Assembly: GCA_003279005.1 (NCBI GenBank) | Contig: QCBY01000007.1 | Location: 1-64,000, forward strand | Source of the DNA: Prochlorococcus sp. AG-347-J22 | GTDB lineage: Bacteria; Cyanobacteriota; Cyanobacteriia; PCC-6307; Cyanobiaceae | Reading direction: 5' to 3' | Length of the DNA: 64,000 bases | Shown here: positions 46,384 to 48,343 of the stretch, piece by piece | Layout of the letters: each line of letters starts with the position of its first letter | How positions within the stretch are numbered: the stretch's first letter is position 1 | The notes under the pieces: model-generated | Databases searched by the model: none | Told to the model about the DNA's origin: nothing | What the model saw: the letters and a program-made list of their open reading frames with translations, nothing else | Made by a program: the position numbers and the translations under genes

Positions 46384-47523
46384 ATGAATCATCCTTTTAA
46401 GAAAAATGCAAAACTTGTTTTAAGTAACGGTATTACTTTTTCTGGTTATTCATTTGGAGCTTTGGGTACAACTCTTGGTGAAATTGTTTTTAATACAGGT
46501 ATGACTGGTTATCAGGAAGTAATAACCGATCCAAGTTATTTTGGGCAGATTCTAACATTTACCTACCCAGAGATTGGAAATACAGGAATTAATTTCGAAG
46601 ATTCTGAATCTGATAATTTTGTAAAAGGTTTAATTGTTCGTAATTACTCAAACAATAATAGTAATTGGAGATCCAAATCTAATCTTAACCAGTGGTTAGT
46701 TGATCATAATATTGTTGGACTTTATGGAGTTGATACTAGAGCACTTGTTAAAATTCTAAGATCTAGTGGTTCTATGAATGGACTTATCACTTCAGAAAAG
46801 AAAGATCTGGAAAGCTGTCTTAAGTTAATTTCTAATGCTCCAGATATGAAAGGCCTAAATTTATCAAAGGAAGTTTCAACAAATAATAACTATTTATGGA
46901 AAAACACTACTGAGACTAATTTTGATAAAAGGGAAAGATTATCTAAAAATGAAAATAAATTTAAAATTGTGGCTATTGATTTTGGGATTAAAAAATCAAT
47001 TCTTAATAGATTAGTATCTCATGGATGTGAAGTAATGGTTTTGCCATCAAGTTCATCTTTTGACGATGTTTTGTCTCATAATCCTGATGGGATATTTTTC
47101 TCAAACGGTCCAGGTGATCCTGCTTCTGTTTTTGAGGGCATTAATTTAGCTAAATCACTTATAAATTTTGGAAAAATTCCAATGTTTGGAATTTGTCTTG
47201 GACATCAAATTTTTGGATTGGCATTGGGAGGAAAAACTTATAAATTACCGTTTGGCCATCGTGGTTTAAATCATCCTTGTGGGATGAATAATAATGTTGA
47301 AATAACAAGTCAGAATCACGGCTTTGCCATTGATCCAAATTCTTTATCAAATGAAAGTGTTGAAATAACTCACTTTAATCTTAATGATAAAACTGTTGCT
47401 GGATTGAAACTTAAAAATAAGCCTATTTTTAGTGTTCAATATCACCCCGAGGCTGGCCCCGGTCCTCATGATTCGGATTATTTATTTGAAAAATTTGTTT
47501 CTCTAATGTTAGAAAGATGTTGA
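46384..47523 (+). CDS. carA: carbamoyl-phosphate synthase small subunit
   Basis: A 379-aa glutamine amidotransferase subunit that supplies ammonia for carbamoyl phosphate (pyrimidines and arginine). The CPSase small-chain domain is N-terminal (TGMTGYQEVITDPSYFGQIL). The class I GATase triad is in FGICLGHQIFGLALGG (Cys nucleophile) and VQYHPEAGPGPHDSDYL (His, Glu). Length is normal. The STAS gene follows after 62 bp. Confidence 0.97.
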   Translation: MNHPFKKNAKLVLSNGITFSGYSFGALGTTLGEIVFNTGMTGYQEVITDPSYFGQILTFTYPEIGNTGINFEDSESDNFVKGLIVRNYSNNNSNWRSKSNLNQWLVDHNIVGLYGVDTRALVKILRSSGSMNGLITSEKKDLESCLKLISNAPDMKGLNLSKEVSTNNNYLWKNTTETNFDKRERLSKNENKFKIVAIDFGIKKSILNRLVSHGCEVMVLPSSSSFDDVLSHNPDGIFFSNGPGDPASVFEGINLAKSLINFGKIPMFGICLGHQIFGLALGGKTYKLPFGHRGLNHPCGMNNNVEITSQNHGFAIDPNSLSNESVEITHFNLNDKTVAGLKLKNKPIFSVQYHPEAGPGPHDSDYLFEKFVSLMLERC

Positions 47524-47588
47524 CATATTGATTCTTTTTGATTTGATAATTACATTTAATAAATTATTTTTTGGGGGGAAATTAAATC

Positions 47589-47954
47589 ATAGAAGATTTT
47601 CAAAAACTAACTGTTTCCTTAAGAGGAAATATAGAAGTAAAGACAAATATTATTGTTTTTACTTTTAAAGGGCAATTAGATGCATTTTCTGAAAAGCAAT
47701 TTAAAACTTTTGTTACTAATAATCTCAAAAAGGATCCTAAGTCATTTGTTATTGACTTAAGCAAAATAGATTTTCTTGACTCATCAGGGTTAGGGGCTCT
47801 TGTTCAAACTTCTAAGGAATCCAAAAAACTCAAAGTTGGTTTTTCAGTGGTTGGAAATTCTAGAGTTGCTCAAACTATAAAACTTGTTCGATTAGGAGAC
47901 TTTCTTAATTTGAAAGCTACTCTTGAGGATTCATTAATCTATTTGAATAATTGA
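47589..47954 (+). CDS. STAS-domain anti-sigma factor antagonist, non-AUG start
   Basis: A clean open frame encodes 121 aa. It has the STAS core FTFKGQLDAFSEKQFKTFV, the hallmark VIDLSKIDFLDSSGLGALVQ (phosphorylatable Ser in DSSGLG) and the C-terminal RVAQTIKLVRLGDFL. The first canonical in-frame start is a GTG past the middle of the domain. An in-frame TAA sits at 47583-47585, so translation must begin at ATC 47586, ATA 47589 or a later non-AUG codon. G-rich GGGGGGAA at 47573-47580 is the only SD-like sequence. Its stop overlaps the TTG start of mrnC. It probably acts in a partner-switching or signalling pathway. Confidence 0.85.
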   Translation: MEDFQKLTVSLRGNIEVKTNIIVFTFKGQLDAFSEKQFKTFVTNNLKKDPKSFVIDLSKIDFLDSSGLGALVQTSKESKKLKVGFSVVGNSRVAQTIKLVRLGDFLNLKATLEDSLIYLNN

Positions 47955-48343
47955 ATTATTGGATACAAAATCTTGCTCCACATGGTTCTCCTGAAGAGAT
48001 AGGTGTGATTCAACTTGCTTGGCTTGGGGACTCTATATGGGAGTTGCATCAAAGATTACGATATATTCATATGCCTTTAAAATCCAAAGAACTTCATCTC
48101 TCAGTAGTAAATGAAGTCAAAGCTGAAGCTCAATCAAAATCATTGCAAGACATTGAACATTTATTAAATTCATTTGAAATTAATTTAATAAGACGAGCTA
48201 GAAACAAAACAAAAAGATTTCCAAAGTCTTCAAATCCTGTCTTATATTCTAGAGCTACTGGTTTTGAAACATTACTTGGTTGGTTATTTTTAAAAGATCC
48301 CAAGAGATTGTCTAAAATTTTTGAATATCTAGATTGCAAATAA
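47951..48343 (+). CDS. mrnC: Mini-ribonuclease III
   Basis: A 130-aa enzyme that matures 23S rRNA ends in cyanobacteria and firmicutes. The RNase III-like active site is IGVIQLAWLGDSIWELHQRL, and the second half has RARNKTKRFPKSSNPVLYSR with ATGFETLLGWLFL. The TTG start at 47951 overlaps the TGA of the STAS gene (frames shifted), so its translation is probably coupled to that gene. rlmB follows 12 bp later. Confidence 0.93.
   Translation: MNYWIQNLAPHGSPEEIGVIQLAWLGDSIWELHQRLRYIHMPLKSKELHLSVVNEVKAEAQSKSLQDIEHLLNSFEINLIRRARNKTKRFPKSSNPVLYSRATGFETLLGWLFLKDPKRLSKIFEYLDCK

Follow-up and report, generated by a model that had tools for sequence, protein, structure and literature searches.

Translation of the gene for a STAS-domain anti-sigma factor antagonist in the window (the whole stretch of 64,000 nucleotides that was analysed) almost certainly starts at an AUH codon, that is ATA, ATC or ATT, and a codon of this kind recurs at the orthologous position in nearly all the relatives that were read. 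Judged by its sequence, the gene is the ortholog of Synechocystis ssr1600, which encodes an anti-SigC antagonist, and its AUH codon is preceded by a very strong Shine-Dalgarno sequence. We think it probable, with some reserve, that Ssr1600 is started in this way because the non-AUG codon keeps the antagonist low in amount and sensitive to the initiation factor IF3.

All features of this locus lie on the forward strand. The ssr1600 ortholog occupies positions 47589-47954 (121 codons plus stop), and carA (46384-47523, TIGR01368) is its upstream neighbour. The reading frame is open from 47586 to the TGA at 47952-47954, and on its 5′ side it is ended by an in-frame TAA (47583-47585) that stands two codons ahead of the ATA at 47589-47591, the proposed start codon, with an ATC at 47586 in between. 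The first-pass annotation had given the TAA, the ATC and the ATA these same positions and had noticed that the STAS frame contains no ATG, GTG or TTG before the middle of the domain. Both observations hold, as the earliest in-frame canonical start-type codon is the GTG at 47847-47849, codon 87 of 121 counted from the ATA, followed only by TTG codons at 47910 and 47943. Initiation at this GTG would come too late for a working domain, since the product would be no more than the C-terminal third of the protein and would lack the phospho-serine predicted in the DSSG motif (47781-47783, codon 65). The length of 121 codons that had been given for the open frame is correct when counted from the ATA, while from stop to stop the frame has 122 codons.

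It had been proposed that relatives be aligned to see whether the non-AUG codon is conserved, and an ATG, GTG or TTG at this position in related strains had been named as the finding that would overturn it. At the codon orthologous to 47589, 324 of the 328 loci read carry ATA, ATC or ATT as aligned, and in two further loci with one extra codon each (L250 and L407) an ATT, read by eye, is displaced one codon upstream, which brings the count to 326 of 328. The exceptions are a TTG (L139), the single canonical codon among the 328, and a CTG (L405). ATG and GTG are absent at the start position from all 328 loci read, and chance can thereby be excluded. The genus of the window carries ATA in 88 of 88 loci (49 distinct contexts and 39 further loci). 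In the other genera of the family, 103 distinct contexts have ATC (51), ATA (31), ATT (20) and TTG (1). Outside the family, ATT prevails, with 42 ATT and 5 ATC in 47 contexts and with 17 ATT, one CTG and one displaced ATT in 19 further loci. Finally, 71 contexts from named records, mostly with Nostocales titles and drawn from the best 80 of 505 relatives, none of them titled Synechocystis, have ATT (62), ATA (8) and one displaced ATT. The total of 328 is made up of 270 distinct contexts, collapsed from 304 loci, and 58 further loci that were left uncollapsed, and the taxonomic levels are the kinship labels of the genome set. That the non-canonical codon is an assembly or sequencing error is a practically negligible explanation, given that the genus loci with their uniform ATA come from independent genomes. 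The same uniformity rules out an indel upstream of 47586 in this assembly, which had been named as a check, and an indel upstream of 47583 could not restore a start because the TAA is adjacent and in frame.

The gene was matched in 73 of 101 genomes of the genus; of the 28 genomes without a match, 5 belong to the 29 with a completeness of 90% or more and a contamination of 5% or less. In the family 270 of 300 genomes were matched, with 103 non-genus contexts read, and in the class 238 of 242, with four misses and 66 non-family loci read; one matched genome (G034) without the start region was left out. Strong orthologs in a search of the phylum were confined to the window's class, with matches of 1.3e-12 or weaker in other classes. 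This class is identified as the cyanobacteria proper by named cyanobacterial loci, one of which matches the query from a same-class genome at 100% identity. One genome of the class (G676, given as 99% complete) has a weak STAS match only (1.5e-11) and may be missing the ssr1600 ortholog.

The history of the third base was reconstructed by Fitch parsimony on a gene tree of 269 sequences, in which it changed about 23 times, one of these changes being the TTG locus, and never to ATG. For comparison, G is the outcome of 209 of the 720 changes (29%) that start from A, C or T at 13 four-fold columns, and with this proportion the probability of zero changes to ATG is about 4e-4 for 23 changes or 5e-4 for 22. 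The test is rough, the tree having been built from the same gene, and it errs on the conservative side, since AUG ought to be favoured at a start. In a large survey, it has been reported that only two switches to AUU were reconstructed among 66,438 ancestral AUG and GUG starts (PMC5622118). One locus (L145, G280:C4:10704-11048) was left out of the tree for its internal stops. It is a STAS ortholog with three in-frame TAG codons, either a decayed copy or a case of recoding.

Both ATC 47586 and ATA 47589 had been offered as start candidates, and the comparison within the genus separates them, making the ATA the likely start in the window. While the ATA is constant, the codon that precedes it is mostly ATC and otherwise ACC, AAC or GTC, which favours ATA as the start; ATC is probably not the start, and its use as the sole start is disfavoured. 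Given that the preceding codon is itself an AUH codon (ATC) in most genus loci, both codons may be used as starts in the genus. The constancy of the ATA goes beyond codon preference, since the codons of the genus are mixed (26 ATA, 20 ATT and 2 ATC) at the only other isoleucine column that 90% or more of the alignment shares. Residues 2-13 are almost constant in the genus and their codons vary synonymously.

The AUH codon might alternatively encode an internal isoleucine, with the true start further upstream at another codon or reached via a frameshift. Some in-frame canonical codon is indeed present somewhere upstream in 106 of the 270 contexts, of which 27 have a stop within 60 nt, but in-frame stops stand directly upstream in many loci: 134 of the 270 contexts have one at most 60 nt upstream with no canonical codon in between, and in several genomes outside the family this stop is the TAG inside the Shine-Dalgarno sequence itself (TAGGAGG). 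The codon just before the AUH varies and the AUH does not, the spacing of the Shine-Dalgarno sequence suits the AUH codon, and both exceptions, TTG and CTG, are start-type codons, so that an upstream start is very improbable. The alignment also shows no alternative canonical start common to the family, canonical codons being present in at most 55 of 269 sequences at any column of positions 2-60. The 20 STAS paralogs fetched as a control from the weaker matches of the phylum search all start canonically, at a codon before model position 24.

The Shine-Dalgarno sequence of the window (GGGGGG, 47573-47578) lies 10 nt ahead of the ATA, and its duplex energy with the anti-Shine-Dalgarno is -9.3. 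At the first start of 43 other open reading frames of the window the median is -0.6 and none of the 43 reaches -9.3; when each of the window's frames is scored instead at whichever nearby canonical codon gives the best value, the median is -3.3 and 19% reach -6. Among the relatives, median energies are -9.8 in the genus (n=49), -8.4 in the family (n=103), -10.9 in the class (n=46) and -12.0 in the named records (n=71), and GGAGG is found in 47 of the 49 genus contexts. Most contexts of the genus (42 of 49) and of the family (79 of 103) have a spacing of 9 nt, and 5 nt is the rule in the class (40 of 46) and in the named records (70 of 71). Compared with shuffled sequences, the region of the start shows no excess of predicted RNA structure, mean folding-energy z ranging from -0.03 to +1.5 by group. 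A hairpin masking the Shine-Dalgarno sequence (UUUUGGA/UCCAAAA), seen by eye in genus loci, is not supported by the folding energies, and a promoter (TACACT/TACATT), seen by eye in family loci, was set aside, as scanning the window for the consensus yielded two weak matches. Immediately before the AUH codon, at position -1, all 49 genus contexts have C, and 108 of the 118 non-family contexts have T. A U in this place might form a pair with A37 of the initiator tRNA.

The downstream neighbour is an RNase III-domain gene (47951-48343; PF00636, 3.3e-19; no match in NCBIfam) with a TTG start, named mrnC (Mini-III) in the first-pass annotation. The first-pass annotation had also coupled the two genes, and the overlap itself is as described there, the stop TGA of the STAS gene (47952-47954) sharing letters with the TTG at 47951 (TTGA). 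All 49 genus contexts have such an overlap between STAS stop and mrnC start (TTGA or GTGA), as do 58 of the 103 contexts from the rest of the family. Of the 118 contexts from outside the family, 33 have an mrnC motif close by, and only one of these 33 shows the overlap. Being almost confined to the window's family, the tie between STAS protein and mrnC does not stand as a general feature and is better taken as a local one; as the main point of the locus it was rejected outside the family. In the remaining 45 of the 103 family contexts (e.g., L060, L062 and L072), no TTG for mrnC overlaps the STAS stop.

The protein scores 68.4 bits for the STAS domain (PF01740; cut-off 22.6, 5.2e-19) and 65.6 for TIGR00377 (cut-off 53.45), and D64, S65 and G67 of the DSSG motif are invariant in 22 aligned sequences. 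In Synechocystis, a 2025 study describes Ssr1600 as the anti-SigC antagonist in a partner switch with the kinase Slr1861 (PMC12329169). With the Ssr1600 numbering taken from the published residues rather than from the Synechocystis 6803 sequence, its L24, G43 and S59 correspond to residues 30, 49 and 65 of the family, a fixed offset of six that equates S59 with the predicted phospho-serine of the window gene. By hand count, the relative L190 has L, G and S at these three positions, and the window gene agrees with Ssr1600 at L30 and S65 and has D instead of G at position 49. The initiation codon of ssr1600 was stated to be TTG, and in the construct that overexpressed the gene from the psbA2 promoter an ATG took its place (PMC12329169). 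The offset of six makes this published TTG residue 7 of the family, the L of LTVSLRG, and puts the conserved AUH codon six codons upstream of it. In L190 residue 7 is indeed encoded by TTG, with an ATT six codons upstream.

Given the published model, in which codon 7 of the family is the start (PMC12329169), it could be argued that the true start is a downstream canonical codon. However, only 44 of 269 sequences have a canonical codon 7 (alignment column 8), the residues ahead of it show partial conservation (residue 3 is nearly always E or D), and the window offers no canonical codon until number 87. We consider a downstream start more improbable still than an upstream one, and the AUH codon is retained as the start. 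For the partner of the antagonist, the window genome, whose assembly is 86% complete, contains one HATPase_c_2 match, a SpoIIAB-like kinase gene with an ATG start located 8 kb past the window (C7:72166-72441). By eye, the open reading frame adjoining this gene looks GUN4-like.

The dose of Ssr1600 matters. It has been reported that overexpression of Ssr1600 slowed growth in high CO2, and that mutations which drastically lowered Ssr1600 rescued cells without the omega subunit in high CO2 (PMC12329169). From these features we infer a mechanism in which ribosomes initiate at AUA 47589 in the window, and at AUU, AUC or AUA in other cyanobacteria. The unusually strong Shine-Dalgarno sequence would place the ribosome at the AUH codon, where the initiator tRNA would mispair with the third base, and initiation would thus have a low efficiency and be liable to rejection by IF3. 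In its unphosphorylated form, Ssr1600 would bind its anti-sigma partner and free SigC, and hence the antagonist would have to stay below its partner in amount. The non-AUG codon would then fix a low ratio of antagonist to anti-sigma factor, a ratio that would move with IF3 activity, so that the AUH start would keep the antagonist both scarce and IF3-sensitive.

A simpler reading is that the AUH codon is the start but merely holds expression low, the level of IF3 carrying no signal. Such is the precedent of E. coli pcnB, a known AUU gene that has been described as translationally limited (PMC9410913), and in S. aureus the AUU start of cvfC1 is reported to lower the yield without an effect of the medium (PMC13009471). 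However, low expression could equally be reached by a weak Shine-Dalgarno sequence, as at the first start of most open reading frames of the window, or by a GUG, whereas here a strong Shine-Dalgarno sequence is kept, and none of the 328 loci has GUG or AUG as the codon behind it. We regard this simpler reading as unlikely, though far from negligible, and prefer a start that is both limiting and IF3-sensitive.

The kind of system, a gene with a non-canonical start of the IF3-repressed type, is known already, although in the literature covered here AUU, AUC or AUA is the established start of few bacterial genes (infC, pcnB and some recent ones). The start of infC is AUU in E. coli, ATC in Streptomyces and AUA in S. 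aureus (PMC5472188, PMC13009471). It resembles ssr1600 in having an AUH start whose third base varies by lineage and an extended Shine-Dalgarno sequence (reported for infC of S. aureus), but infC encodes IF3 and regulates itself, whereas ssr1600 encodes no translation factor. In S. aureus, infC, cvfC1 (AUU) and ccpN (AUA) are described as having AUA or AUU starts with extended Shine-Dalgarno sequences, and in poor medium the yield of the cvfC1, ccpN and citZ reporters was about 10% of that with AUG; ccpN is medium-sensitive and shares its start with B. subtilis (PMC13009471). The conserved AUA or AUU with an extended Shine-Dalgarno sequence makes ccpN and cvfC1 similar to ssr1600, but they encode other proteins in another phylum.

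A further parallel is found in Streptomyces sigR, which is reported to start at GTC behind an extensive ribosome-binding site and to be repressed by IF3, and in which any canonical codon unbalances the ratio of sigma to anti-sigma factor (PMC5472188). Its start is GTC in 32 and GTT in 2 of 34 cases across Streptomyces, and it is misannotated in genomes (PMC5472188). Non-canonical start on a gene of a sigma switch, very strong ribosome-binding site, overlap of stop and start with the next gene, genus-wide conservation and misannotation are all common to sigR and ssr1600. The differences are that the codon of sigR is GTC and not AUH, that it sits on the sigma factor and not on the anti-anti-sigma factor, and that it is Streptomyces-wide, with no evidence for it in other actinobacterial genera according to the source (PMC5472188), whereas the AUH codon of ssr1600 spans the whole class. 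What ssr1600 shares with infC-like and sigR-like genes is thus a very strong Shine-Dalgarno sequence together with a conserved codon of the class that IF3 discriminates against.

In the portions of the literature covered by our search, we found no report of an AUH start for ssr1600. A proteogenomic study of Nostoc reports eight revised genes with ATA or ATT starts (PMC8557916), and ssr1600 may be among those eight. If true, the class-wide case of ssr1600 would be among the most widely conserved non-AUG starts, and it would concern a regulator that links photosynthetic growth to carbon supply. An AUH start implies that the published model of Ssr1600 is short of six N-terminal residues, and the ATG-swapped overexpression construct may have removed a layer of control. 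The codon being kept off AUG suggests that cells hold Ssr1600 at a low level that responds to the state of the translation machinery, which raises the question of whether initiation fidelity feeds into the choice of sigma factor in cyanobacteria.

IF3 autoregulation through infC is unsupported in the window genome, which has a single infC match with an ordinary ATG start. Among the infC loci of genus and family, ATG heads the frame in 12 of 14 (the motif search took the wrong frame for L231 and L238 and found no motif for L241 and L243), so that no feedback of the E. coli type is visible in the family. Other cyanobacteria carry a second, short IF3-like paralog, infC2, first seen at L241-L243 and read in 30 loci (L414-L443). 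In 28 of the 30 an AUH codon (ATC or ATA, often after ATT) stands directly before a conserved LIN motif; the examined upstream stretch is free of canonical codons in 26, and in 4 a TTG or GTG lies 14-19 codons ahead of the LIN motif. Such putative AUH starts suggest that infC2 is under IF3 autoregulation. It is conceivable, though we hold it only tentatively, that ssr1600 and infC2 form an ancient small AUH regulon in cyanobacteria, which would read the balance of IF3 to ribosomes into the SigC partner switch between growth and arrest and whose codon would have been off AUG since the ancestor of the class. In such a regulon, the IF3-to-ribosome balance would stand for translation capacity and hence for growth state, light and carbon supply. 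By eye, Shine-Dalgarno sequences of the AGAGG type are seen in many of the infC2 loci.
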